From positions 1,240,001-1,304,000 of the forward strand of contig NZ_CP052766.1 of the NCBI RefSeq assembly GCF_002499975.2: a stretch of 64,000 bases of DNA, in the 5' to 3' direction. Of the stretch, positions 1,625 through 59,276 are shown in pieces; position 1 is the stretch's first letter; every line of letters begins with the position of its first letter. The DNA is from Alteromonas pelagimontana. Its GTDB lineage: Bacteria > Pseudomonadota > Gammaproteobacteria > Enterobacterales > Alteromonadaceae. Below the pieces are notes generated by a model. It saw nothing but the letters and a program-made list of their open reading frames with translations, ran no database searches and was not told the origin of the DNA. Both the position numbers and the translations under genes were made by a program.

Positions 1625-2119
1625 TTACGAGGAACTCCAGTTAAATAGGATTGGCCATAGCTGTTGCGAGGATTTATCAAAATCACACCACAACTGCCGG
1701 TAGGTTTGTCTTGCGACAGGATGGACTTCTTCAGGCACCAGTTCTGCAAGGGGTTGCAGAACAAAAGCATTGAACAGTATTTCTTCCCGAGGCAATACAA
1801 CAGGTTGCATGGTGATTACATGATTGTAGGTTAATAGATCTAAATCCAGAGTGCGAGAACAAAATTTCTTTTCGCCGTGCTTTCTACCATTCTCTCGCTC
1901 GATGGCCTTCAGCCGTTGGCATACCTGCTCTATCGACAATTCTGTGCAGGCTTTCACCACCAAGTTGTAGAATCGGCTTCCGTTAAACCCTACCGCTTCG
2001 CTTTCATAAACCCTGGACCATTGCACCTCAGCAAATATCGACTCCAATGCAGTTCTGGCGGCGCGAATATGCTTTGTTCGATCAATATTTGACCCGACAC
2101 TGATAAGAATATCATTCAC
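1625..2119 (-). CDS. folK: 2-amino-4-hydroxy-6-hydroxymethyldihydropteridine diphosphokinase
   Basis: FolK transfers pyrophosphate from ATP to 6-hydroxymethyl-7,8-dihydropterin in folate synthesis. The 164-residue protein shows the N-terminal SVGSNI motif ([13 protein letters not shown]), the substrate-binding FYNLVV segment and the signature [11 protein letters not shown] with the metal-binding Asp pair, followed by [19 protein letters not shown] (family form LPHP..R.FVL.PL.E). Its ATG overlaps the folB stop by 4 bp and its stop lies 2 bp before uppP. The length is at the short end of the normal range. It shares the pathway with folB next to it. Confidence 0.95.
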
Positions 2120-2472
2120 GATGGTAGCGCCTGCCTCATTTTCACCATAACCTGCGTGGCCTGAGGCAGTATGTCAGGTTTGATAATGGTCAGGGTAATG
2201 GCATGAATTGGAAAACGAGCCAAAACGGCATCCATCACCGCTTTTCCCAAGGCTTCCAGCAGCTCAAAGGAAGTTCCTGCCGCTGTTTGTTGTACAAATT
2301 CCGCCAGCTGCGCATAATCAATGGTATCTGCAACGTTATCGCTTTGCATTGCCTTGGATAAGTCAGCATCAATTTCAATATCAAGCAATAGCCGGGTGAG
2401 TCGCTTTCGTTCCCAGTCATACACGCCAATCAGCGTATCAACTTCAAGACCTTGTATAATTATCTGTTCCAT
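2116..2472 (-). CDS. folB: dihydroneopterin aldolase
   Basis: FolB cleaves 7,8-dihydroneopterin to 6-hydroxymethyl-dihydropterin and glycolaldehyde, the step before FolK. The 118-residue protein has the typical opening IIIQGLEVDTLIGVYDWER, a central VADTIDYAQLAEFV segment and the closing LTIIKPDILPQATQV. It is the first gene of the minus-strand folB-folK-uppP unit and is divergent from plsY across about 150 bp that must hold both promoters. The arrangement folB opposite plsY, with tsaD and rpsU beyond, is conserved in many gammaproteobacteria. Confidence 0.95.
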   Translation of the reverse strand: MEQIIIQGLEVDTLIGVYDWERKRLTRLLLDIEIDADLSKAMQSDNVADTIDYAQLAEFVQQTAAGTSFELLEALGKAVMDAVLARFPIHAITLTIIKPDILPQATQVMVKMRQALPS

Positions 2473-2619
2473 TCAGTTTGTATCTTTAATTGCTCATTTC
2501 GCCAGTGCGCACTCTTTGCAAACATTATTAAAAACCGTCGCTGAAAGCTAACTATGTGGCGCAATGATGGGCTTTCTAGTAGTGTGTGTAGAGTGTAACG
2601 TGAACATCGGCAGTATGAC

Positions 2620-3219
2620 ATGATTGCAACCATTATTCTGATGATTGGTGTGGCCTATTTATTTGGCTCACTCTCCAGCGCTGTGGTGATTTGCCAGCTA
2701 TTTGGCATTGCCGACCCCCGTACTGCGGGGTCGAAAAATCCAGGCGCGACCAATGTCTATCGATTGGGGGGAAGATTTCCCGCCATACTTGTGCTTTTTA
2801 TGGATATTTTGAAAGGCACGGTACCAGTTTATATCAGCTACTGGATGGGCATTGAGCCCATACCCTTAGGTTTTATCGGTATTGCCGCCTGCCTAGGTCA
2901 CATTTTCCCTTTATATTTTGGTTTCAGAGGAGGAAAAGGCGTTGCCACTGCTTTTGGCACCTTGCTACCCATTGGACTGGATCTCGCCGGGCTGCTTATT
3001 TTAACGTGGGGATTGGTGGTGTTTTTCTGGGGCTACTCATCGTTAGGAGCCATTATTGCTGTCAGCTTGGCGCCACTTTTCACCTGGTTTATCAAACCGA
3101 TGTACACAGTACCAGTAGCAATGCTGTCGCTACTGGTCATTCTGCGCCACCACGGCAATATCACGCGTTTAATAAGAAAAGAAGAAAGTAAAGTGTGGGA
3201 TAAAGTCAAATTAAAGTAA
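2620..3219 (+). CDS. plsY: glycerol-3-phosphate acyltransferase PlsY
   Basis: PlsY moves the acyl group from acyl-phosphate to glycerol-3-phosphate, making lysophosphatidic acid at the inner membrane. The 199-residue protein has about five membrane segments and the three family motifs: [12 protein letters not shown], the glycine-rich [12 protein letters not shown] that binds phosphate, and [21 protein letters not shown]. It is divergent from folB and convergent with the phosphodiesterase gene, ending 31 bp from that gene's stop. Length and motifs are normal. Confidence 0.95.
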
Positions 3220-3250
3220 TTACGCATCTTTATCCCGCGGGGTGACTCAA

Positions 3251-4513
3251 CTAAGGGGTTTTTAACCCTTTTTCAAAGACGCGAGTATTGCCGTCAACAT
3301 CGGTAAGCAGCTTTAATCCCATTATTTTTGCCAGCCCGGGATAGATTGCCAGGTTCTGCATCACGGGCAAGGTAACGTCTTTTTTAAAAGCCGGCCCGGC
3401 AGCAACAAAAAGTGCCCCCATATCTGGGTGCGAAGGCAAATACCCGTGTCTACCGACACTGCGATGCCCATCTGTAGTGGTAAAGCTGGCTGGCGGAGAA
3501 ATCTCCAACAAAATATCGCCGGTACGTGAATTCGCTGGCATATAACGTTCTTCGCGTTCTGCATCAGTTAGTACATGATATCTTCCCTGACTGAGACGCT
3601 GGAGCGACTGGCGAAGTTTGTCAATGTCACTGTTTTTGACACCGGGCTTGGCATAAATCATAGTTTGACTGCTTGCTACTTCAACCACAAAAGCATCGTC
3701 GTCTATATCCAGTGTATCTACGTTGAACAGGCGTTTTTCTTCAATTTTGGTCATACCATGATCAGACACAATGACTAAATTGACTGGCACGGGCAGAGCT
3801 TGCAGGCGATCATAAAGTTGTCCAATTAACGTATCCACAGTTTGCACGGCAGCGTGAGTTTCCTGCGCATCCGGACCGAATTTATGACCCATGGAATCCA
3901 CCAGAGAAAAATAGCCGGCAACGAAAAGCGGCCGCTGCCCTTCAGGTAAACTCAGCCATTGGATAATCTGGTCGATGCGCGCCTGATAATCCGAATATTT
4001 TGAATAATGATAATAATAACTGGGGGTGGCGCCATTAATTAATGCATCGGACTCAGGCCAAAAATAAGTGGCCGATTTAAACCCGCTGAACTCCACCAGA
4101 TTCCATAACGGCATTCCTTGTATCCAGGTACTGTCGGCGCCGCCTTTACCCATACTGTAGCGTGCATAAGTATCGCCCTTCGGCCGCTTTTTATCATAAA
4201 AAGCATTGTTTACAATACCATGATGAACAGGCAGCAAACCCGTAATAATAGAAATATGGTTAGGAAAGGTACTGGCCGGATACACCGACAGCATATTCTT
4301 AGCCCTTACCCCCTCACTGGCTATACGCGCAAGATTTTTCGCGTCATGTTTTTCGATATAATCATGACGAAAACCATCTAAGGACATTAGCACTACATGC
4401 TGACGTTCATTTTGCGCCACAGAGTTTGTGATACCAGTCTGATTATTGGCGTGAGAAATGCCGATAACACTCAGTAAGCCTAATGCAATGACAAATCCGC
4501 TGTTTACTTTCAT
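3251..4513 (-). CDS. secreted type I phosphodiesterase / nucleotide pyrophosphatase family protein
   Basis: The protein of about 420 residues has an N-terminal signal peptide (MKVNSGFVIALGLLSVIGIS, cut near SHA-NN) and the alkaline-phosphatase fold motifs of PF01663. These are VLMSLDGFRHDYI (metal Asp), PASTFPNHISIITG with the nucleophile Thr, DSMGHKFGPD, SDHGM and GRHGYLPSHPDMGALF (metal ligands). It probably hydrolyses phosphodiester or pyrophosphate bonds of nucleotides in the periplasm. The start at 4513 is chosen because AAGGA precedes it and the signal peptide begins there; an in-frame ATG at 4621 lies inside tsaD and would bury the signal. The true substrate is not predictable. The gene follows tsaD on the same strand. 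Confidence 0.85.
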   Translation of the reverse strand: MKVNSGFVIALGLLSVIGISHANNQTGITNSVAQNERQHVVLMSLDGFRHDYIEKHDAKNLARIASEGVRAKNMLSVYPASTFPNHISIITGLLPVHHGIVNNAFYDKKRPKGDTYARYSMGKGGADSTWIQGMPLWNLVEFSGFKSATYFWPESDALINGATPSYYYHYSKYSDYQARIDQIIQWLSLPEGQRPLFVAGYFSLVDSMGHKFGPDAQETHAAVQTVDTLIGQLYDRLQALPVPVNLVIVSDHGMTKIEEKRLFNVDTLDIDDDAFVVEVASSQTMIYAKPGVKNSDIDKLRQSLQRLSQGRYHVLTDAEREERYMPANSRTGDILLEISPPASFTTTDGHRSVGRHGYLPSHPDMGALFVAAGPAFKKDVTLPVMQNLAIYPGLAKIMGLKLLTDVDGNTRVFEKGLKTP

Positions 4514-38987: not shown

Positions 38988-39104
38988 AAATCTCTCATAG
39001 TAGCCCCTTGCGGCACTTGATTACGGGATTGGTATCACTCTAAGTTGGAAAGATTTGGAATAAGACTTACCTTTCTATCCAACTTTCAATTAGTTATACT
39101 CCGC

Positions 39105-39345
39105 GGCGTTTTAGGTGCCTGCCTCTGGCAGGGTAAACGGGAAATCAGTAGAAGCTGATGCTGCCCCCGCAACGGTAAACTCAAGTAACCTTTTCGTTAC
39201 TTTTATGCATCACCGCAGACCGCCCGGTCGGCGAACAACCACTATAGCGTTGGAAATACATTATCCGCTATGGGAAGGGATGTATATCCGCGTCTCGATA
39301 CGCTGTGAGTAAGCCCGGATACCGGCCTGGAGACACGCCGTCAGC
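39105..39345 (+). promoter_or_regulatory. cobalamin riboswitch
   Basis: The leader of btuB holds the conserved pieces of the cobalamin aptamer in order: GGGTAAACGGGAA near 39,130, GCTGATGCTGCCCCCGCAAC near 39,155-39,175, and AAGCCCGGATACCGGCC near 39,312. At about 235 bases it is on the long side because of an extended central arm. It should repress btuB when cobalamin is plentiful. The gap from 38988 has no other feature. Confidence 0.9.
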
Positions 39346-39403
39346 CTTGTCTGACTCAAGACAGTTTATTGTGCTCGGGTGGAGCACTGAAACGAGAGAC
39401 ACC

Positions 39404-41335
39404 ATGAAAATCACATTAACTTCCCGGTTGCTGCCCAAAGCAACTGCCATTGCCTGTGTATTGGCTTCAGCCTCAGCACTGGCGCAAACTTCCAATAACG
39501 ATAATATTGAAACGCTGACTATCACCGGCTCCCGTTTACCTATTGAGCTTAATCAGGTGGCGGCCTCAACATCCGTGCTTTCCGAAGATGAAATTCGACG
39601 TTCTGGTGCAGTGCAGTTAACAGACTTGCTGCGCTCGTTGCCTGGCGTCACCATTGCACAGTCGGGCAGCCCCGGCGCGTTGGCAGAAATCCGGGTTCGT
39701 GGCAGCGAGAGCAATCACCTGCTGGTGCTGATCGACGGTGTTGTGGCCAACGACATCGGCCAAGGCAGTTTAATTGACTTAGCCCATTTAACTGCCGCCA
39801 ACGTCACTCGCATCGAACTACTGCGTGGCCCGCAAAGTGCTCTCTGGGGTAGCGGCGCTATCGGCGGCGTACTCAGCATTACCACTAAGGGCGCTGCCAC
39901 ACAAAACTCCCAGAGCGTAGGGGGTACATTTGCAGTCGGTAGCCGCGAAACAACTAGAGTCAATCTTAACGCATCGGGTAACCAGGAAGATTTTAGCTAT
40001 TCGGCATTTGCTGACTGGTTCGAAACCAATGGCGACAACGTTGCTCGCGATGGGGATGAAGACGACAGTTATCGCAATATTACTACCGGCGGTGGCATTG
40101 CCTGGCGCGCGACGGACGAACACACGTTTTCGGCTAATGTTCGTATAGTAGATTACGCGAATGACTATGACAGCACAGACTTTAGCACCGGCTTGCCAGC
40201 AGACGCAGACAATGTAACTGACGGGCAGCAAATCAGCACCCAGTTAAGCTGGCTATTGGCGCCGTCGAACTCTGATTATTCCAGCGAATTAAAGCTTCAG
40301 TTCCGTGAAGATGAAAACAGCAATACTACCAGCGGTACAGATGCTGGAAGCACTACTGGTAAACGTCAGCAAGTTATCTGGGTAAATCGTTACCAGGTAA
40401 ACGACTGGCAGTTGGCTGGCGGGCTTGAATATCTGCAACGGCTTTTCGAGCAACGTGGAGCTACTGACTACGGCGATCCTAATCAGGATCAGCATGACAC
40501 CACGGTCAGCGCCTTTGGCGAGGCTGGTTCTGAACTGACCGACGATGTTTTTGCTACTTTCAGTGCACGTTTTGACAACAATAGCGAGTTCGATAATGCA
40601 GTAAGTTATCGCGCAGGATTAACATGGGAAGTTACCAGAAACTATTCTTTGTTTGGTAGCTTGGGTAAAGCCATTAAAACGCCTACTTTTACTGAGCGCT
40701 TCGGCTATTATCCGCAATCATTTGTGGGAAACCCAGAGCTGAAACCGGAAACCAGCCGCGAGTGGGAAGTTGGTGCGCGTGCCCGCTGGACCTCAGCATG
40801 GTCTGGAGAAGCCAGTTATTTCAACGCCCGTCTTGAAGACGAAATTAACGGCTATGTTTACGATCCGGAACTGCTTGCCAGCACCGCCAAAAACATTCTG
40901 GGTGAAAGTCGTCGTGAAGGCATAGATACAGAGCTCAATTATCAGGGCAGTAGTTTCGCCGTGCGACTGGCGTACAGCTATCTGGATGCCACTCAAGATG
41001 AAGCAGAAATTACTGAGCTTCGCCGCGCACAACATGTTGGCTCTGTTACCGTAAGTGGCGATTTACCCGTTGCCGGACTGGGGGCTTACGTAAAACTTGC
41101 TTATACCGGCAGCCGGGACGATATGTACTACCCGCCGTATCCTGAACCTGCTACCACTGTCGGCTTGAAGCCTTACACGTTAGCCAGTGTTAATGTGACG
41201 TACCAGCTAGCGCCTCAGTGGCAAGCGGCGCTGCGGATAGACAACGCTTTAGGCGAAGATTACGAAGATATCTATGGTTATGCTGGTGAAAAGCGCCGCG
41301 CACTATTCAGTATCAGCTATCAGATGAATCCGTAG
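39404..41335 (+). CDS. btuB: TonB-dependent vitamin B12 receptor BtuB
   Basis: The 643-residue outer-membrane receptor has a signal peptide (ending ASALAQ), a TonB box (ETLTITGSR), a plug domain (EIRVRGSESNHLLVLIDGV, RIELLRGPQSALWGSGAIGG) and a 22-strand barrel ending in an aromatic-rich C-terminus (RRALFSISYQMNP). It is smaller than FepA-type receptors, as BtuB is, and the cobalamin riboswitch in front confirms the substrate. The chosen ATG follows CGAGAG; the frame is open further upstream only through the riboswitch. No btuCDF genes are nearby. Confidence 0.94.
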   Translation: MKITLTSRLLPKATAIACVLASASALAQTSNNDNIETLTITGSRLPIELNQVAASTSVLSEDEIRRSGAVQLTDLLRSLPGVTIAQSGSPGALAEIRVRGSESNHLLVLIDGVVANDIGQGSLIDLAHLTAANVTRIELLRGPQSALWGSGAIGGVLSITTKGAATQNSQSVGGTFAVGSRETTRVNLNASGNQEDFSYSAFADWFETNGDNVARDGDEDDSYRNITTGGGIAWRATDEHTFSANVRIVDYANDYDSTDFSTGLPADADNVTDGQQISTQLSWLLAPSNSDYSSELKLQFREDENSNTTSGTDAGSTTGKRQQVIWVNRYQVNDWQLAGGLEYLQRLFEQRGATDYGDPNQDQHDTTVSAFGEAGSELTDDVFATFSARFDNNSEFDNAVSYRAGLTWEVTRNYSLFGSLGKAIKTPTFTERFGYYPQSFVGNPELKPETSREWEVGARARWTSAWSGEASYFNARLEDEINGYVYDPELLASTAKNILGESRREGIDTELNYQGSSFAVRLAYSYLDATQDEAEITELRRAQHVGSVTVSGDLPVAGLGAYVKLAYTGSRDDMYYPPYPEPATTVGLKPYTLASVNVTYQLAPQWQAALRIDNALGEDYEDIYGYAGEKRRALFSISYQMNP

Positions 41336-45479: not shown

Positions 45480-46688
45480 TTAAAAAGTGGTGCCCATCCA
45501 GACCCAGAGCTTATTGGTATCGACATACCCGCTACCATTTTCATTCGCTGAGTATCTGCCAAATTTCACGCCTGCACTAACTCTTTCGGCTATGCTGGTG
45601 ACATACTGCAGATCTATTTCATTGCCCAGATCACCAGTAACGGTGCCAGCTTTGTTTATATCGAACTTGTGATAAACCATGGTCACTGTGCCACCGGCGA
45701 AAGGCGCAGCAACCGAAACCGCTAAATCTTCCAAACCTTGCGCTGGTGTTGTGAGGAACTGATCGGTCCAGCCGTTAAATTTATGCAACGTAGCCAGCGG
45801 CGTAGAGAAACCGTATTTCCCTTCATCGGAACCTAACACTTCATACATGAGCTTTCCGGTAATGCCAGACATGAGCAATCCACCTTCTACCTTATGATAA
45901 CTGGCGTTGTAGTCGGCTAAGGCATTCTCGCTGCTTTGGGTTGCAGCTTCTGCCCCGTACACCCATTTCAGGTTTCCTTGCTTAACGCCGCCGGTAAAAC
46001 TGATACCGTAGGTATCAATGCTATTTTCCGCCTCGTTATCCTCTTCCAACAGGTAACCATAGGCTACAAATTTGCCCATAGCCGTAGTGTAGGAGGCATT
46101 AAACAGGTGATCTTTGGAGTTAATATCTGCGGCTTCGGCGAAGATGCGGTTGCGCTGATTGATATAGCCATAGAAGACATCAACCGCATCATTAATTGTG
46201 TAAGCCACGGTGACGCCATCAAAAGTCTGACGGTCTTGTCGCCATCCCACATCTCCCACGAAACGGTGGTCATCCAAAGCGATAATCTGGCGACCCGCTT
46301 TTACTGTAATATGCCGATTGCGATACTGAATCAGTGCCTGGTCTAATTCAGTGGTTTTTGGATCAGCAATAGTAGAATAGATGCCAGCATGAAAATCGGC
46401 AGGGCCAACAGAATAATCCCCCTGCCCCAAAGCAACCCTTACATCTTCAAGTTCGGCAGTAAAAGAGAAGCCGCGATATTCACCGCTGGTAATATTCAGC
46501 TGTGTACGAAACGTTAGCGCATCCGCATCTTCTAAAGTGTTGTCCTGATCCACTGCCTCATATCGTAACCGCAGATCTGCACTGGCAGTGGTTTGTGAAA
46601 GTGCGTCGTACCAATCTGCGGCTTCGCTTGCCGCGCAAAAAACGCAGGACAAAGCAATTATTAAAAAATGCTTAGGAGTTCTTCTCAT
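45480..46688 (-). CDS. outer-membrane porin of the alginate-export family, in the nitrate regulon
   Basis: The 402-residue protein has a signal peptide (ending SEA-AD) and a beta-barrel pattern with alternating aromatic residues: DLRLRYEAVDQDNTLEDADA, FTAELEDVRVALGQGDY, VKAGRQIIALDDHRFVGDVG and a C-terminal Phe (LWVWMGTTF). It resembles the AlgE-like alginate_exp family. Its place after the nitrate transporter and kinase genes, with a nitrate-type ANTAR leader in front, points to an anion or nitrate porin rather than alginate export. AGGAA precedes the ATG. The role is inference from context and the family call is moderately sure. Confidence 0.8.
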   Translation of the reverse strand: MRRTPKHFLIIALSCVFCAASEAADWYDALSQTTASADLRLRYEAVDQDNTLEDADALTFRTQLNITSGEYRGFSFTAELEDVRVALGQGDYSVGPADFHAGIYSTIADPKTTELDQALIQYRNRHITVKAGRQIIALDDHRFVGDVGWRQDRQTFDGVTVAYTINDAVDVFYGYINQRNRIFAEAADINSKDHLFNASYTTAMGKFVAYGYLLEEDNEAENSIDTYGISFTGGVKQGNLKWVYGAEAATQSSENALADYNASYHKVEGGLLMSGITGKLMYEVLGSDEGKYGFSTPLATLHKFNGWTDQFLTTPAQGLEDLAVSVAAPFAGGTVTMVYHKFDINKAGTVTGDLGNEIDLQYVTSIAERVSAGVKFGRYSANENGSGYVDTNKLWVWMGTTF

Positions 46689-46746: not shown

Positions 46747-46854
46747 CAAAAAAGCCCACCAGCCATCGACGGAAGAGCCGTCTGGGCTGTGTGGGCGTCG
46801 TTGCCTACATTCAGATTTATTTTGCTTTTTTGGTTATACCGATCCGCATGGATC
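46747..46854 (-). promoter_or_regulatory. ANTAR-type RNA leader with overlapping terminator, porin gene
   Basis: On the minus strand GGC-AACGAC-GCC (46794-46805) is a hairpin with a hexaloop having A at position 1 and G at position 4. Its right arm runs into the terminator stem GCCCAC/GTGGGC (46754-46796), followed by six T. An upstream hairpin GATC-CATGCG-GATC (46841-46854) could be the first hairpin, though its loop starts with C. The rest of the 46689-46891 gap is plain. No sigma-54 promoter was found here. Confidence 0.65.
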
Positions 46855-46891: not shown

Positions 46892-48601
46892 CTAATCTTT
46901 AAAAACCAGCTGTAGCATTACAGCGATAAATAAAAGCGCACTGACGCACTGCCAAACCAACACCGGCTTACGTTCAATTAAAGGCCGCTGTTTTTCCAGC
47001 AAACGAATTGTGTCGTCTGAACTTTCAAGCGCTGTTTCAAATTCAGAAAAGGCGGCGTAGCGGTTCACAGGATTTGGCTGCAGTGCCTTTTTTAAACATA
47101 CATCCAACCAGGCCGGCAAGTCAGGTCGTCCGCGAATCAAGGGCTTATATTCCCGGGCAAAAATGCCGCTGGATATCGTTTGACTTGCCGGTTGATACGG
47201 TAAGTCTCCGCACAGCATTTCATAGAGAACAGTAGCGCAGGAAAACTGATCACTGCGAAAATCAGCCGTATTGTGAAGTAAATATTCTGGCGCAATATAG
47301 TTCACCGCTCCCAAAGGCACTGTATGAGCCAGCTGCTCGCCTGTTTCCTCCTGAGCAGCCACAAGCACGGCACCAAAATCAATCAACTTGACTTCACCAT
47401 TGCCATTAATCATCACGTTTTCCGGCTTGACGTCCCGATGCACCATTTGTTGCCGCTGCAGCACTCGTAACGCCGCAATCAACTGCCTGGCAATACGCCG
47501 TACTTTATCCAGAGCCGGAGACGGATTATCAATCATCCATTGGCGTAACGTCTGCCCCTCAATGTACTCGCAAAGGTGATACATAAATCTGGCCGCAGCT
47601 GGCCTTGGAAAAATCTTCATTACATACGGGCTACGCAGATGTTGCCCAATCCATTCCTCTCGCAAGAAGCTGCTTAAATAAGCAGGATTATCGGCAAAAT
47701 ACTCAGAAGGTGTTTTCATGCTGAACAGCTGCCCGCTGTTGTCATCTATAACTTTATATAAACTGCTTCTGGTGCCGTTAAATAAAATTTCCAGCACTCG
47801 CATCCCTTCCAGCTTCATTCCGGGCTTCAGGGCGGGAGGTATGGCAAGACGAGTGAGTTGTTGGCAGACTTCATCAAGATTGGCACTGGGTAATCTATTA
47901 ACTTTCAACAACAGGCAGCTTAAATTGTCGTCACTGCCATTGGTCAATGCCGCCTGAACAATGTTGCGACTCGTCGCCTCCAGGTCCTGCGATTCTTCCT
48001 GTAACGCTGACTTCACTTGTTTGGTGGTGATAAACTGATGCACGCCATCAGTGGTCATCACAAAAATATCGTCTGGCTGTAAATCAATTTGTTTAAAATC
48101 GACGTCCAGATGAGGTTCAATTCCTAACGCTCTGGACAACACAGAACGCCTACCTTGCTTGATACAGTGATCCAGCGTTAGCTGTTCGAGATCGCCATTC
48201 TGATAACGGTAAATTCTCGAATCGCCTGCATGAAAAACAAATGCACTGTTTGACTTAAAAATGAGTCCGCTGAAGGTGGTAACGGCTTGGCTGCCGCCCC
48301 CGGTTGCAAACGCATTTTGACCATAACACCAGCGATTTACACTTTGCAGAACCTGTTGTGCAGAACGCTTTACTGTCCAGGTGACCGGCGTTTGCAGGTA
48401 ATCCAGCACGAAAGTAGTTACGGCAGAGTTAGCGGCTTCCTTAGCCTTAGCGCAGGCAGAAACGCCATCAGCCATGGCCGCCACTACGCCTTTTTCTTTA
48501 AGCTGGCTGCCCTGACCATGCCAGACAGCAAAAGCATCCTGATTTTCAGATTTCACACCGGCGCTACTGTAACCCCCGTAAGAAAGAGATAAATCTGCCA
48601 A
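46892..48601 (-). CDS. PP2C phosphatase - Ser/Thr kinase fusion with C-terminal membrane anchor
   Basis: The 569-residue protein joins a PP2C phosphatase (about 1-240: SENQDAFAVWHG, AAMADGVSACAKA, FVFHAGDSRIYR, TDGVHQF) to a Hanks-type kinase (about 265-530: HRDVKPENVMINGNG, LIDFGAV, PEYL). It ends in a hydrophobic helix (VSALLFIAVMLQLVF). The kinase N-lobe is short and lacks a clear glycine loop. It starts with TTG, with AAGGA 7 bases upstream, 9 bp after narK. Such fusions recur next to nitrate transporter genes (for example PA1782 in Pseudomonas), so it may control nitrate uptake or reduction by reversible phosphorylation; that is inference. Confidence 0.88.
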   Translation of the reverse strand: MADLSLSYGGYSSAGVKSENQDAFAVWHGQGSQLKEKGVVAAMADGVSACAKAKEAANSAVTTFVLDYLQTPVTWTVKRSAQQVLQSVNRWCYGQNAFATGGGSQAVTTFSGLIFKSNSAFVFHAGDSRIYRYQNGDLEQLTLDHCIKQGRRSVLSRALGIEPHLDVDFKQIDLQPDDIFVMTTDGVHQFITTKQVKSALQEESQDLEATSRNIVQAALTNGSDDNLSCLLLKVNRLPSANLDEVCQQLTRLAIPPALKPGMKLEGMRVLEILFNGTRSSLYKVIDDNSGQLFSMKTPSEYFADNPAYLSSFLREEWIGQHLRSPYVMKIFPRPAAARFMYHLCEYIEGQTLRQWMIDNPSPALDKVRRIARQLIAALRVLQRQQMVHRDVKPENVMINGNGEVKLIDFGAVLVAAQEETGEQLAHTVPLGAVNYIAPEYLLHNTADFRSDQFSCATVLYEMLCGDLPYQPASQTISSGIFAREYKPLIRGRPDLPAWLDVCLKKALQPNPVNRYAAFSEFETALESSDDTIRLLEKQRPLIERKPVLVWQCVSALLFIAVMLQLVFKD

Positions 48602-48610
48602 CGTTATTCC

Positions 48611-50077
48611 TTAGGTAACCTGAATCAGTTCCACAGTGCCGTCTTCATTCACTTCTGTCATCGTGCCTGCAGGTTCTTGCATGAACAGCAAAGCAACAAA
48701 ACCCAGTACTGCGGTGCAGCCGATTACCATAAAGAAGGTAGAAGCATCCACCAGTGAATACACAGTTAAATAAGTGACCGCTCCCACATTGCCGTAGGCG
48801 CCAGTCATACCCGCAATTTGTCCGGTAAGGCGGCGCTTAATTAGCGGCACAGCCGCAAACACAGCGCCCTCTCCCGACTGCACAAAAAAGGAACACAGCA
48901 TGACTGCGAGTACGGCTAACCAGGTAGGCCAGCCCGGATTAATGGTGCTTAGCAAAAAGTAGCCAGCCGCCAAACCGGCGGTCAAAATGAGTAAGGTTTT
49001 TTTGCGTCCAAAGTTATCTGAAATGACGCCGCCCGCAGGTCGAGACATCAGGTTCATAAACGCGTACATGCCAGCCAGCAACCCGGCTGTTGCCATATTT
49101 AACGTAAAGGTTTCAGCAAAAAAGGCCGGCAGCATGGAAATAACCGCCAGCTCGGAACCAAAAGTGGCGAAATAAAGAATATTCAGTACGGCAACCTGCT
49201 TGAATGAATAACGATGGATGGCGGGCACAGGCTGTTTAAAAATACTGGCATTTGCGCGAAACGTAGAATAAGCATCAAACAGGTACAAAGCGATAAGCGA
49301 GGTATAAATGGCATTGCAGAGTGTATCTCCCAGCCATCCCACGCCAGCCGCAGAAAGCTTCCAGTTGAGCAACGCTAAAGCCAGGTACATCGGTGTTTTC
49401 ATAACCAGCAGAAATAGAAAATCCCCTTTGCTGGTTACTTCCATACCGCCTAAATTTTTTGGCCGAAAGTAGGTTGCACCTTTGGGTGTATCCGACACAT
49501 TTACATAATAAATCACACCAAAAATGAGCGATAGCACGCCGGTTATAGCAATGGCGTAGCGCCAGCCATTGTCTCCTCCTAACAGCAGCGCCAAAGTCGG
49601 CAATGTGAATGCCGCAGCCGCCGAACCGAAGTTTCCCCAGCCGCCATAAATTCCCTCGGCAGCGCCCAGCTCTCCTGGCGGAAACCACTCACTTACCATG
49701 CGAATGCCAATTACAAAGCCCGCGCCGATAAACCCTAATGCAAAACGAGCGATGGCCAGTTGGGTAAAATCCGTAGCCAGAGCAAACGCAAAACAGGGAA
49801 TGGAGCAAACTATCAGTAGCGATGAATAGACGATTCTGGGGCCAAATTTATCTGTCAGTGCGCCTATTACCACTCTGGCGGGAATGGTCAGCGCCACATT
49901 CAAAATCAATAAGGTTTTCCAGTCATCAACTGACAGCCCAAGGTCTTCTACAATAAGCTGCTTCAGCGGCGCCATATTGAACCAGACAAGAAACGTGATG
50001 AAGAAAACCATCCAGGACAAATGCAGAATTTTCATTTTCCCGGTAAAGGACGCTAGATTGAATTTTTCGTTACTCAT
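48611..50077 (-). CDS. narK: nitrate/nitrite MFS transporter NarK/NasA type
   Basis: The 488-residue inner-membrane protein has twelve hydrophobic segments and NNP-family motifs: FVIGIRMVSEWFPPGELGAAEGIYGGWGN-type region (read as GIRMVSEWFPP and GIYGGWGNFGSA), VIGALTDKFGPR after TM2, and GQIAGMTGAYGNVGAV (second nitrate signature). It should import nitrate for assimilation. The gene has its own sigma-54 promoter, NtrC-like sites and ANTAR-type leader upstream, and is followed at 9 bp by the phosphatase-kinase gene. Some annotators would name it nasA. Confidence 0.93.
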   Translation of the reverse strand: MSNEKFNLASFTGKMKILHLSWMVFFITFLVWFNMAPLKQLIVEDLGLSVDDWKTLLILNVALTIPARVVIGALTDKFGPRIVYSSLLIVCSIPCFAFALATDFTQLAIARFALGFIGAGFVIGIRMVSEWFPPGELGAAEGIYGGWGNFGSAAAAFTLPTLALLLGGDNGWRYAIAITGVLSLIFGVIYYVNVSDTPKGATYFRPKNLGGMEVTSKGDFLFLLVMKTPMYLALALLNWKLSAAGVGWLGDTLCNAIYTSLIALYLFDAYSTFRANASIFKQPVPAIHRYSFKQVAVLNILYFATFGSELAVISMLPAFFAETFTLNMATAGLLAGMYAFMNLMSRPAGGVISDNFGRKKTLLILTAGLAAGYFLLSTINPGWPTWLAVLAVMLCSFFVQSGEGAVFAAVPLIKRRLTGQIAGMTGAYGNVGAVTYLTVYSLVDASTFFMVIGCTAVLGFVALLFMQEPAGTMTEVNEDGTVELIQVT

Positions 50078-50101: not shown

Positions 50102-50170
50102 AAAAAAAAACCCACAAGCTAGATGAACATGTCATCTCGCATTGTGGGCTTCGTTGCCGGGTATCAACCC
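50102..50170 (-). promoter_or_regulatory. ANTAR-type RNA leader with overlapping terminator, narK
   Basis: On the minus strand GGC-AACGAA-GCC (50147-50158) is a hexaloop hairpin with A1 and G4. Its right arm overlaps the terminator CCCACAA/TTGTGGG (50111-50148; the inner stem AGATGA/TCATCT stacks inside), followed by nine T and GACTCG. Just upstream GGG-TTGATA-CCC (50159-50170) is a candidate first hairpin, but its loop does not fit A1/G4. The terminator ends about 25 bp before the narK start. Confidence 0.75.
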
Positions 50171-50240: not shown

Positions 50241-50258
50241 AAGCACCTTTAGTGCCAA
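50241..50258 (-). promoter_or_regulatory. sigma-54 (-24/-12) promoter of narK
   Basis: The minus strand reads TTGGCACTAAAGGTGCTT: GG and GC are exactly 10 bases apart, and TTGGCAC is the consensus -24 box. The expected start of transcription is near 50,230, giving a leader of about 150 bases. Confidence 0.82.
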
Positions 50259-50320: not shown

Positions 50321-50359
50321 TGAATCAAGATAGTGCAGCGGATGCACTTTATGTGGACA
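50321..50359 (-). promoter_or_regulatory. two NtrC-like enhancer sites upstream of narK
   Basis: Two 17-bp elements fit the TGCAC-N7-GTGCA pattern in part: TGAATCAAGATAGTGCA (50321-50337) and TGCACTTTATGTGGACA (50343-50359). Their centres are 22 bp apart, about two helical turns, and 73 and 95 bp from the -24 GG. Each has one perfect half-site. The rest of the 50078-50486 gap shows only a weak hairpin after the aldo/keto reductase gene. Confidence 0.6.
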
Positions 50360-56464: not shown

Positions 56465-59011
56465 TTATACCAATTCAACCGGAATGACGTTGTTACCGGC
56501 GCGTTTTTCGGCTTCTGTCGCGGGACGGATCTGCTCCCGCTGCGTGACAAATTGAATATTGCTGTCTACCGCGTTGCTGTTGATAAACTGACGAAAGCGT
56601 TTCAGTGATTCTTGAGATTCCACCGCAGTCTTCCATTCGCACTGATAGGAATCGACGATATGCTGCATCTGCGCTTCCAGCTCTTGATTAATTCCCAGTG
56701 CATCCTCTATAACGACGGACTTAAGATAGTCCAGCCCGCCTTCCAGATTGTCCATCCACACCGACGTTCGCTGTAAGCGGTCGGCAGTTTTTATATAAAA
56801 CATTAAAATGCGGTCGATGTAGCTAATGAGTGTGGGGGTGTCCAAGTCGGTGGCAAACAGGTCCGCGTGGCGCGGCTTCATACCGCCATTGCCGCAAACA
56901 TACAGGTTCCAGCCATTCTCCGTGGCAATGATACCGATGTCTTTACTTTGTGCTTCAGCACACTCGCGGGTACAGCCTGAAACTGCCATCTTAATTTTAT
57001 GGGGTGCGCGAAGCCCTTTGTAGCGATCTTCAATTGCAATGGCCTGTCCCACCGAATCCTGCACACCATAGCGACACCAGGTGCTTCCTACGCAAGACTT
57101 CACCGTGCGCAGAGACTTCGCATATGCGTGTCCGGTTTCGAAACCGCCTTCAATGAGTTCGCTCCAAATCAGCGGCAGTTGTTCCACGCGAGCACCAAAC
57201 AAATCTACACGCTGGCCGCCGGTGATCTTGGTGTACAAGTTATAGCGCTTGGCCACTTCTCCCAGCAGAATGAGCTTCTCGGGCGTAATTTCACCACCTG
57301 CTACGCGAGGCACTACCGAATAGGTGCCATCCTTTTGCATATTTCCCAAATAGGTATCGTTGGTATCCTGCAAAGGAAGGTGCGCTTTTTGTAGCACAAA
57401 GTCGTTCCAGACCGAGGCCATAATTGATGCAACGGTGGGTTTACATATTTCACAACCTAAGCCGCTGCCGTGTTTATCCACCAGCTCATCGAAGCTGCGG
57501 ATACCTTCAACTTTAACGATATGAAAAAGTTCCTGACGGGTATGGTTAAAGTGCTCACAGATTGCTTTGGACACTTCGACCCCACGCTTTTCCAGCTCGT
57601 TGTCGACGACATTTTTCAGCAACGCAGCGCAACCGCCACAGCCGGTGCTGGCTTTGGTAGACGATTTTACCTCTCCCAGGCTGCAGCAGCCTGCCTCTAT
57701 AGCTCCCACAATGTCACACTTGGCAACGTTATGACATGAACAAATGGTTGCGCTATCAGGTAGCGCATCCGCACCTAATGTCGGTGCTGCGCCTGCACTA
57801 GGTAGAATCAGGCTTTCTGCGTGCTCAGGTAGTGCAATGCTGTTTAGTGCATACTGCAGCAATGTGTCGTAATCGCTGGTATCCCCCACCAGCACAGCGC
57901 CTATCACCTGCTGTTGAGCAGCGTCCACTACCAGCTTCTTATAAATGCCTTCGGGCTGGTTATGGTAAGTAAAGCACATAGCGCCTTCGGTGCGGGCGTG
58001 GGCGTCACCGATAGATCCTACCTCAACGCCCATCAGTTTAAGCTTGGTGCTCATGTCTGCACCTTCAAACGCCATGTCATTACCCGCTATATGGGCTGCT
58101 GCGACGCGTGCCATGGTGTAACCTGGCGCTACCAACCCATAGATTCGGTTGCCCCATAGCGCACATTCACCAATTGCATAAATACTGGAATCAGAGGTAA
58201 CGCACAGGTTGTTGATGACAATCCCGCCACGCTGACCAATCTGTAGATCTGCCTGGCGCGCCAGTTGATCTGAGGGACGGATCCCGGCGGAAAACAGAAT
58301 CATGTCCGTTTCCAAAAACGAGTCATCGGCAAACACCATGCGATAGCGACAGGTTTGCCCTGCTTCAATGACCTGTGTGGCTTTTTGCGTGTGTACCTGT
58401 ACACCAAGAGCGGTAATTTTGCTTCTTAGCAGCTCACCACCAGCATTATCAAGCTGAACTGCCATCAGTTGCGAGGCAAATTCCACTACGTGGGTTTCCA
58501 GCCCGGCCTGCTTAAGTGCATTGGCGGCTTCCAGCCCTAATAATCCGCCGCCGACCACAACGCCGACTTTGCTTTGGCTGGCAGACGCTTCAATGGCTTC
58601 CAAATCTTCAATGGTGCGATATACCAGACAATGCGCCTGATCATTACCAGGAATAGGCGGCACAAAAGGAAACGAACCCGTTGCCATCACCAAAACGTCA
58701 TACTCGTAATTCTGCATAGCAGCGGTGGTGACTATCTTGGCAGTACGGTCGATACTGGTAACCATGGCCTCTTTAATATACCGCACGCCCCATTCGTCAT
58801 AAGTAGCTTCATCGGTCAGAGCCAGATCTGCTGCACTTTTACCGCTAAAGTAAGAAGATAATTGTACGCGGTCATAGGCCAGTCTTTTTTCGCCGCTAAG
58901 CACTGTAATTTCACACTGGCTTTTGCTGCTGACCAGTTGCTCTACGAAATGGTGTCCTACCATGCCGTTACCGACAACAACTACTCGCGTTAATGATGTG
59001 GATTGATTCAT
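56465..59011 (-). CDS. nirB: nitrite reductase large subunit (NADH, siroheme)
   Basis: NirB reduces nitrite to ammonium in the cytosol with NirD. The 848-residue protein has an FAD/NADH part (VVVGNGMVGHHFVEQL, VVGGGLLGLEAANAL), a BFD 2Fe-2S domain (ICSCHNVAKCDIVGAI, STGCGGCAALL), the nitrite/sulfite ferredoxin-like repeat, and the 4Fe-4S/siroheme cysteines (CVGSTWCRYG, CTRECAEAQ with CGNGG). It heads the nirB-nirD-nasA-cobA-trpD2-like operon and is controlled by the NtrC-like sites, sigma-54-like promoter and ANTAR-type leader upstream. Confidence 0.96.
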   Translation of the reverse strand: MNQSTSLTRVVVVGNGMVGHHFVEQLVSSKSQCEITVLSGEKRLAYDRVQLSSYFSGKSAADLALTDEATYDEWGVRYIKEAMVTSIDRTAKIVTTAAMQNYEYDVLVMATGSFPFVPPIPGNDQAHCLVYRTIEDLEAIEASASQSKVGVVVGGGLLGLEAANALKQAGLETHVVEFASQLMAVQLDNAGGELLRSKITALGVQVHTQKATQVIEAGQTCRYRMVFADDSFLETDMILFSAGIRPSDQLARQADLQIGQRGGIVINNLCVTSDSSIYAIGECALWGNRIYGLVAPGYTMARVAAAHIAGNDMAFEGADMSTKLKLMGVEVGSIGDAHARTEGAMCFTYHNQPEGIYKKLVVDAAQQQVIGAVLVGDTSDYDTLLQYALNSIALPEHAESLILPSAGAAPTLGADALPDSATICSCHNVAKCDIVGAIEAGCCSLGEVKSSTKASTGCGGCAALLKNVVDNELEKRGVEVSKAICEHFNHTRQELFHIVKVEGIRSFDELVDKHGSGLGCEICKPTVASIMASVWNDFVLQKAHLPLQDTNDTYLGNMQKDGTYSVVPRVAGGEITPEKLILLGEVAKRYNLYTKITGGQRVDLFGARVEQLPLIWSELIEGGFETGHAYAKSLRTVKSCVGSTWCRYGVQDSVGQAIAIEDRYKGLRAPHKIKMAVSGCTRECAEAQSKDIGIIATENGWNLYVCGNGGMKPRHADLFATDLDTPTLISYIDRILMFYIKTADRLQRTSVWMDNLEGGLDYLKSVVIEDALGINQELEAQMQHIVDSYQCEWKTAVESQESLKRFRQFINSNAVDSNIQFVTQREQIRPATEAEKRAGNNVIPVELV

Positions 59012-59032: not shown

Positions 59033-59119
59033 AAAAAAAAACCCACCGCCAACGAAAGTTGGTTGTGGGCTTCTTTGCCTGTTTCAGCGCGCATCGACGT
59101 ACGCCTGACTGCATTGTCA
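59033..59119 (-). promoter_or_regulatory. ANTAR-type two-hairpin RNA leader with overlapping terminator, nirB
   Basis: On the minus strand the first hairpin TGAC-AATGCA-GTCA (59106-59119) and the second GGC-AAAGAA-GCC (59068-59079) each have a hexaloop with A1 and G4, the pattern bound by ANTAR antiterminators. The second overlaps the terminator CCCAC...GTGGG (59042-59069, inner stem CCAAC/GTTGG), which is followed by nine T and GACTCG. The terminator ends 22 bp before nirB. Confidence 0.82.
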
Positions 59120-59161
59120 AACGGCAGTAATCTGCCTGAAGAATATGTTCAACAAGAGTAT

Positions 59162-59178
59162 TTCAAGTTCGGTGCCAA
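59162..59178 (-). promoter_or_regulatory. sigma-54-like (-24/-12) promoter of nirB
   Basis: The minus strand reads TTGGCACCGAACTTGAA: a perfect -24 TTGGCAC, with the -12 element TTGAA in place of TTGCA, so GG is followed after 10 bases by GA rather than GC. The position relative to the NtrC-like sites is the same as at narK. Confidence 0.65.
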
Positions 59179-59240
59179 CTTTTTAGACTCTAGATTTCAA
59201 CGACTTAACTGTATGAGAAGAACTCAGAGGGGAGGATTGT

Positions 59241-59276
59241 CGCACCAACCTGGTTCATCTGAACCAAGTTGATGCA
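59241..59276 (-). promoter_or_regulatory. two NtrC-like enhancer sites upstream of nirB
   Basis: On the plus strand CGCACCAACCTGGTTCA (59241-59257) and TGAACCAAGTTGATGCA (59260-59276) are each an imperfect TGCAC-N7-GTGCA site. Together they form one large palindrome of 15-bp arms with 13 matches. Centres are about 73 and 92 bp from the -24 GG of the nirB promoter. Confidence 0.6.

Follow-up and report, generated by a model that had tools for sequence, protein, structure and literature searches.

Antitermination by ANTAR proteins is held to need two hexaloop hairpins, P1 included, in vivo. Among described systems, P1 and its A1 and G4 are essential in the nasF leader of Klebsiella oxytoca (PMC3369936), and a published covariance search for ANTAR targets demanded both hairpins (PMC3369931). 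K. oxytoca NasR binds P2 alone at ~12 uM, compared with ~1 uM for P1P2 (PMC7496416), so that binding to a single hairpin is possible in principle, and a paper on the structure of EutV with RNA, in which the binding unit is reduced to one hexaloop, asks what role single-hexaloop motifs have (PMC8934654).

The combination in series of general nitrogen control and NasR is in print for K. oxytoca (PMC5424462), and Pseudomonas nirBD is described as subject to antitermination with NasT from a sigma-54, NtrC-dependent promoter (reviewed in PMC12830290, citing Romeo 2012 and Nie 2024); serial logic joining NtrC/sigma-54 with NasR or NasT is already known from Klebsiella and Pseudomonas. Work with a nirB mutant of Alteromonas macleodii indicates that nirB decides competition for nitrate with phytoplankton (PMC8749424). 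No NasR leaders of Alteromonas were found in the literature, judged from listings and titles. What is new here is the extension of the known serial logic to Alteromonas nirB, with apparently altered RNA recognition, the functional statements being read from sequence. The nirB upstream region is very probably a two-stage switch, with an NtrC/sigma-54 stage followed by a NasR leader, in which the unit recognised is probably P2 together with a 5' element.

The nirB locus

The window, i.e. the whole stretch of 64,000 nucleotides that was analysed, contains a nitrate assimilation locus of the Alteromonas type, with the element upstream of nirB. Downstream of nirB there follow a Rieske-type (nirD-like) frame, a molybdopterin reductase (nasA-type) and then a tetrapyrrole methylase. 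Read on the minus strand toward nirB, positions 59276-59033 comprise two NtrC-like 17-mers, a sigma-54-type box, a hairpin leader and a terminator, the end of which (59033) is 21 nt upstream of the nirB ATG at 59011. The parts that the initial annotation had described are all in place on the minus strand, its coordinates being correct. The features of the region are:

59260..59276, minus strand: distal NtrC-like 17-mer TGCATCAACTTGGTTCA, 10/12 to consensus, centre 91 bp upstream of the -24 TGG
59241..59257, minus strand: proximal NtrC-like 17-mer TGAACCAGGTTGGTGCG, 10/12, centre 72 bp upstream of the -24 TGG
59195..59207, minus strand: weak candidate IHF-like site TAAGTCGTTGAAA, 8/9 to what we take to be the consensus, between the NtrC-type sites and the promoter
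59162..59177, minus strand: sigma-54-type promoter TGGCAC-N5-TTGAA
59123..59136, minus strand: leader hairpin A, GGCAG-ATTA-CTGCC, a fold prediction
59106..59119, minus strand: P1 hexaloop hairpin TGAC-AATGCA-GTCA, extending to 8 pairs at 59102-59123 and overlapping an ACAAY element
59084..59108, minus strand: competing or spacer hairpin between P1 and P2, from the minimum-energy fold
59068..59079, minus strand: P2 hexaloop hairpin GGC-AAAGAA-GCC, with C:G closing, A1 and G4
59033..59070, minus strand: intrinsic terminator with nine T, its 5' arm overlapping P2 (model match 59035-59080, E 6.6e-10)
56465..59011, minus strand: nirB, first gene of the controlled operon

Elsewhere in the window, a cobalamin riboswitch was located at 39096-39344 on the plus strand (72.7 bits, gathering score 31.5), directly 5' of a frame (39305-41335) that by eye resembles a TonB-dependent receptor. 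Two related frames flank the nitrate genes, one at 46892-48601 (minus strand) in the window and the other at 1796-3511 (minus strand) of L002; in one of the two, Pfam shows a PP2C-type phosphatase fused to a protein kinase domain, and in position one lies between the narK-type and porin-like genes and the other adjoins nirC.

NtrC-like sites and the sigma-54-type promoter

Scoring employed TGCACC-N5-GGTGCA, which we take to be the NtrC consensus, and presumed consensuses for sigma-54 and IHF. Two 17-bp NtrC-like palindromes had been proposed at about 73 and 92 bp from a TTGGCAC -24 box, together forming one large palindrome; their centres were measured at 72 and 91 bp, and the TGCAYCA..TGGTGCR pattern of the joint palindrome recurs in 14/17 genus nirB promoters. 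The sigma-54-like promoter proposed with them is likewise in place, as a TGGCAC-N5-TTGAA sequence, with TGGCA and TTG invariant in the 17 genus rows. The -24 GG element is present; the -12 element reads GA in the window (TTGA, with no C) and is off consensus, and a C after the -12 TTG occurs in 0/17 genus nirB promoters, which have A, T or G instead. In the same loci, by contrast, the -12 element often reads GTGC in the promoters of narK- and nrtA-type genes.

Taken singly over the 64 kb, neither NtrC-type matches (4 found, 3.18 expected) nor sigma-54-type matches (5 found, 3.79 expected) are above chance, and single matches of either kind were, at such counts, rejected as evidence by themselves. 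For an element proposed from sequence the strong test is its conservation in comparison, rather than counts of single motifs. The genus sample consisted of 24 genomes (the window's own plus 23), 18 of which have nirB, at a contig edge in G005 and in two frames in G017; 17 nirB upstream regions were aligned, G005 being omitted, though its upstream region displays the same parts. The invariant islands of the 17 aligned regions are the NtrC arms, TGGCA plus TTG, P2 (GGC, A1, G4 and GCCC), the terminator columns and eight T. As the alignment rows were picked by nirB and not by leader, the conservation of P2 is not built in. The gene upstream varies between relatives (with a SulP-like or a kinase-like end, by eye) while the elements persist.

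An NtrC-like 17-mer scoring at least 8/12 is situated 71-73 bp from the -24 box in 17/17 genus nirB promoters, and a second at 91-94 bp in 12/17; the outer TGCA arm of the distal 17-mer is invariant in the 17 aligned rows. NtrC-type sites also occur 5' of the glutamine synthetase gene and of the histidine-kinase gene adjoining ntrC (10/12 and 11/12). An IHF site was rejected as a general feature, with the best match at -30/-31 in 8/17 promoters and several matches no better than shuffles.

P2, the terminator and further leaders

The AAAGAA hexaloop hairpin that had been described as overlapping a nine-T terminator just 5' of the ATG was found as such and is kept in the genus alignment; it combines the features of an ANTAR leader P2, i.e. 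a hexaloop with A1 and G4, C:G closing and overlap with the terminator 5' arm. The P2 sequence with at most one mismatch occurs 3 times in 64 kb (0.40 expected), a number reached in 0/100 shuffles. The loop A1 and G4 and the GGC/GCC stem of P2 do not vary among 26 aligned leaders, which belong to different genes. The terminator stem is paired in 25/25 distinct rows of these 26 leaders, and two of its six pairs show compensatory changes. The Rfam search that had been proposed for an ANTAR-related family gave only a sub-threshold match to NsiR1 (25.9 bits, gathering score 39), and an NsiR1 identity for the leader was discarded.

Leaders of this kind also precede other genes of the locus:

50321..50359, minus strand: NtrC-like pair TGTCCACATAAAGTGCA / TGCACTATCTTGATTCA before the narK-type gene, 8 and 9/12, centres 94 and 72 bp from -24
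50242..50257, minus strand: sigma-54-type promoter TGGCACTAAAGGTGCT of the narK-type gene, the -12 element having GC
50104..50159, minus strand: P2/terminator leader of the MFS gene 48611-50077, which we take to be narK-type (model match E 2.3e-9, in the training set)
46748..46806, minus strand: P2/terminator leader of the porin-like (alginate-export-type outer-membrane) gene 45480-46688 (model match E 7.1e-9, in the training set)

No sigma-54-type box was seen by eye in the 195 nt before the porin-like gene, the leader of which may be an attenuator inside a longer transcript. The nirC-like gene beside nasR has a P2/terminator leader with a U:G-closed variant. A covariance model made from the 26 leaders gave, among 150 scored of 1249 candidates in 4.31 Mb, three strong matches, all from this locus and themselves in the model, the next having E 0.198. 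At E 0.01 the model finds leaders in 0/6 genus genomes that lack nasR and at least two apiece in 9/9 that carry it; all of these nine except G005 and G020 had contributed leaders to the model. In a rule-based scan, 14/16 fetched relatives have the leader upstream of a gene whose product is an NMT1-type binding protein, taken for the nitrate-binding NrtA. Outside the genus, a P2 leader precedes nirB in G028, where the frame upstream ends in an ANTAR-like stretch and, read by eye, appears NasT-like; no P2 was seen before nirB in L019-L022, also outside the genus.

P1 and the ACAAY element

The leader had been described as a two-hexaloop ANTAR target, a reading that is not supported in that form: both hairpin sequences are in place in the window with A1 and G4, but whereas P2 is conserved throughout, P1 is present in just 1/33 Alteromonas leaders, and Arg340 is missing from the Alteromonas protein. 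The leaders compared come from the best 80 of 497 named NasR loci, 57 of which yielded at least one candidate under a hairpin-terminator rule, some of them spurious, and with the genus loci numbered 117, or 85 once near-duplicates were removed. To count as canonical, P1 had to have an AANG loop closed by C:G, a stem of 3 or more pairs of which no more than one was G-U, and a distance of at most 67 nt from P2. So defined, and with the labels beta and other gamma assigned from record titles, P1 is found in 18/20 betaproteobacterial leaders, in 3/32 other gammaproteobacterial leaders (5/32 by an A1/G4 rule), in 1/13 leaders of a further set of the same order, and among the 33 nonredundant Alteromonas leaders (0.21 expected) solely in the window's own nirB leader. 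It is present in 9/9 leaders of the Klebsiella-like family f18, which is presumed to be Enterobacteriaceae, given that its ANTAR sequence resembles that of K. oxytoca, and had 14 leaders before 5 near-duplicates were dropped. A stricter rule gives 14/20 betaproteobacterial, 1/33 Alteromonas and 4/32 other gammaproteobacterial leaders.

Extending the P1 search to 140 nt upstream, or admitting other closing pairs, gave no excess over shuffles in Alteromonas, and P1 was not found in the other three leaders of the window's genome. The hairpin adjoining P2 in relatives was considered as P1 and rejected, its loops not being A1/G4. Upstream folding energy speaks only weakly for a conserved hairpin in the nirB leaders (mean z -0.9, 13 leaders); for nrtA-type leaders the mean z is -2.5 (9 leaders).

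The P1 of the window, with its 8 pairs when G-U is counted, is equalled in 0.00025 of shuffles; when the 33 Alteromonas leaders are shuffled as a set, the best one attains 6 pairs in 0.7-1.7% of cases. In the minimum-energy fold of the window leader the P1 3' arm is taken by the competing hairpin and P1 is not formed. The window P1 is by the shuffles good enough to be real, yet the predicted fold favours a rival hairpin. The linker between P1 and P2 is 26 nt, outside the 5-12 nt of eut leaders; P1-bearing NasR leaders of betaproteobacteria have long linkers as well. Five of the betaproteobacterial leaders (L107, L130, L134, L139 and L162) have a further predicted hairpin between P1 and P2, which would explain distances far longer than those in eut leaders.

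An ACAAY element within 50 nt of P2 is enriched in the groups that lack P1, being present in 21/33 Alteromonas leaders (7.1 expected) and 14/32 other gammaproteobacterial leaders (5.1 expected), counts to be read with the motif having been picked by k-mer counts in the same leaders. A later set gives a fairer test, but its members are related to the first; there ACAAY occurs in 6/13 leaders (2.3 expected; 0/200 shuffles) and ACAAT alone in 5/13 (4/200 shuffles). In the groups with P1 the element is found in 1/20 and 1/9 leaders. ACAAY is predicted to be unpaired (mean 0.63 over 38 occurrences); in the window nirB leader, where it sits in the P1 stem and loop, the value is just 0.13. The idea that ACAAY represents a decayed P1 loop is speculative.

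NasR and its RNA-binding residues

The initial annotation made its reading depend on an ANTAR protein gene, nasT or nasR, elsewhere in the genome, and such a gene is present: the single ANTAR match above cut-off is a 455-codon frame with NIT then ANTAR domains, collinear with K. oxytoca NasR 4AKK and having proteins of Alteromonas as its closest named relatives. As this sole ANTAR match is of the NIT-ANTAR type, NasT was rejected as the regulator here. The nasR gene is located ~9 kb from the nirB start and adjoins a formate/nitrite transporter gene (nirC-like). The genome also has ntrC (751 bits, curated cut-off 558.6) and one sigma-54 gene, rpoN. NasR is found in 18/18 genus genomes with nirB (as a contig-edge fragment in G005) and in 0/6 without nirB, although, nasR and nirB being neighbours, their joint loss could be one deletion per absence. 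The NasR match of one relative (G003:C44:191711-193027) is listed with an internal TGA.

Arg340 of K. oxytoca NasR is described as almost universal and as indispensable for binding RNA (PMC7496416); in that protein Arg366 is needed for RNA binding too. Of 122 NasR proteins, 3 were dropped as too short, leaving 119 rows, near-copies included, in which this position is Arg in 79, Gln or His in 38, Leu in one and a gap in one. The named NasR proteins without Arg340 are from Alteromonas, Alteromonadaceae, Glaciecola, Paraglaciecola, Pseudoalteromonas and Rheinheimera; the protein of the window species (L033) has Gln at both the Arg340 and Arg366 positions. On an 87-row tree the loss of Arg340 is one change (support 99), with the changed rows L189 and L199 on very long branches. 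Arg366 is mostly Gln in rows without Arg340, but with six changes on the tree.

By the present alignments, the counterpart of NasR Arg340 is EutV Arg142. In the structural work, EutV Arg142 contacts G4 of P2 and the R142A substitution costs only 8-fold in binding (PMC8934654), so that loss of Arg340 may be mild. P1 is rare as well in leaders of other gammaproteobacteria that retain Arg340 in their NasR, and hence the RNA and protein changes are not one-to-one. It is possible, at somewhat short of even confidence, that NasR and its leaders changed together in Alteromonas and related genera, P1 being lost, often with ACAAY instead, and Arg340 being replaced once by Gln/His, leaving natural single-hexaloop leaders and a re-tuned ANTAR domain.

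Proposed mechanism and alternatives

In the mechanism that we propose, nitrogen shortage would lead phosphorylated NtrC, on the paired sites, to activate sigma-54 polymerase at TGGCAC-N5-TTGAA, as the conserved sites and gene content suggest. The leader would by default fold into the terminator before the ATG, and nitrate- or nitrite-bound NasR would hold P2, whose 3' arm is the terminator 5' arm, so permitting read-through, a mechanism that has been demonstrated for NasR of Klebsiella. The unit recognised in Alteromonas is probably P2 plus a 5' element often carrying ACAAY, and not two hexaloops; the window leader additionally carries a P1-like hairpin. As P1 is missing from 32/33 Alteromonas leaders and Arg340 is replaced, binding by Alteromonas NasR is something that we infer. 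The earlier proposal that nitrogen shortage and nitrate are combined in series gains from the presence of NasR, ntrC and rpoN and from the co-occurrence of nirB, leaders and nasR in the genus. Such control would, it appears, turn the nitrite-reducing genes on only under nitrogen shortage together with nitrate presence.

The leader of the window could instead be a fully canonical two-hexaloop target, with the P1 of relatives escaping the rule used. Its P1 carries an AATG loop closed by C:G and can extend to 8 pairs, rarely equalled in shuffles, at a distance from P2 within the range of several betaproteobacterial leaders. We nevertheless regard this reading as rather unlikely, given that P1 is confined to one of the 33 Alteromonas leaders and does not emerge from the wider searches, that the three other leaders of the same genome are without it, and that the fold prefers the rival hairpin.

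For the promoter, it may be asked whether the NtrC-like pair serves another palindrome-binding regulator, the promoter not being NtrC-driven; many relatives match well only in the outer arms of the 36-38 bp palindrome, each 17-mer scoring 8-9/12, and single NtrC-type matches are at chance level. The fixed position of the pair relative to the sigma-54-type box, the presence of ntrC and rpoN in the genome, and the related sites upstream of the genes for glutamine synthetase and for the kinase encoded next to ntrC make this improbable. That the hexaloop is incidental, P2 and the terminator serving to end the upstream gene in the ordinary way or as an attenuator without regulation, is more improbable still, to the point of being scarcely credible: while no Rfam family matches the leader at threshold, the P2 loop and stem are invariant across leaders of different genes, leaders are absent from all six nasR-less genus genomes at E 0.01, and the leader is downstream of a conserved promoter. 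The preferred reading remains NtrC/sigma-54 activation followed by a NasR leader.

Comparison with known systems

With one branch of NasR leaders lacking P1 and other branches retaining it, natural sequences allow the question of two versus one hexaloop to be tested directly; if real, single-hexaloop Alteromonas leaders would contradict the rule that P1 is required in vivo. The closest known system is K. oxytoca nasF/NasR, which shares a NIT-ANTAR regulator, a P2 hexaloop with A1/G4 over a terminator and general nitrogen control (PMC3369936, PMC7496416, PMC5424462). By contrast, P1 is essential there and the regulator has Arg340/Arg366, whereas 32/33 Alteromonas leaders are without P1 and the corresponding residues are Gln or His and mostly Gln; in addition, the controlled operon here, unlike nasF, starts with nirB.

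The Pseudomonas nirBD leader (NalA) is similar in having antitermination before nirB and a sigma-54/NtrC-type promoter (PMC12830290), but employs the two-part NasS-NasT, rather than the single NIT-ANTAR NasR found here. In the dual-hexaloop EutV leaders of Enterococcus faecalis, too, a terminator is overlapped by a P2 hexaloop that has A1/G4 (PMC3369931); EutV, however, needs P1 at a 5-12 nt linker, whereas the Alteromonas leaders are without P1, save for the nirB leader of the window with its linker of 26 nt.
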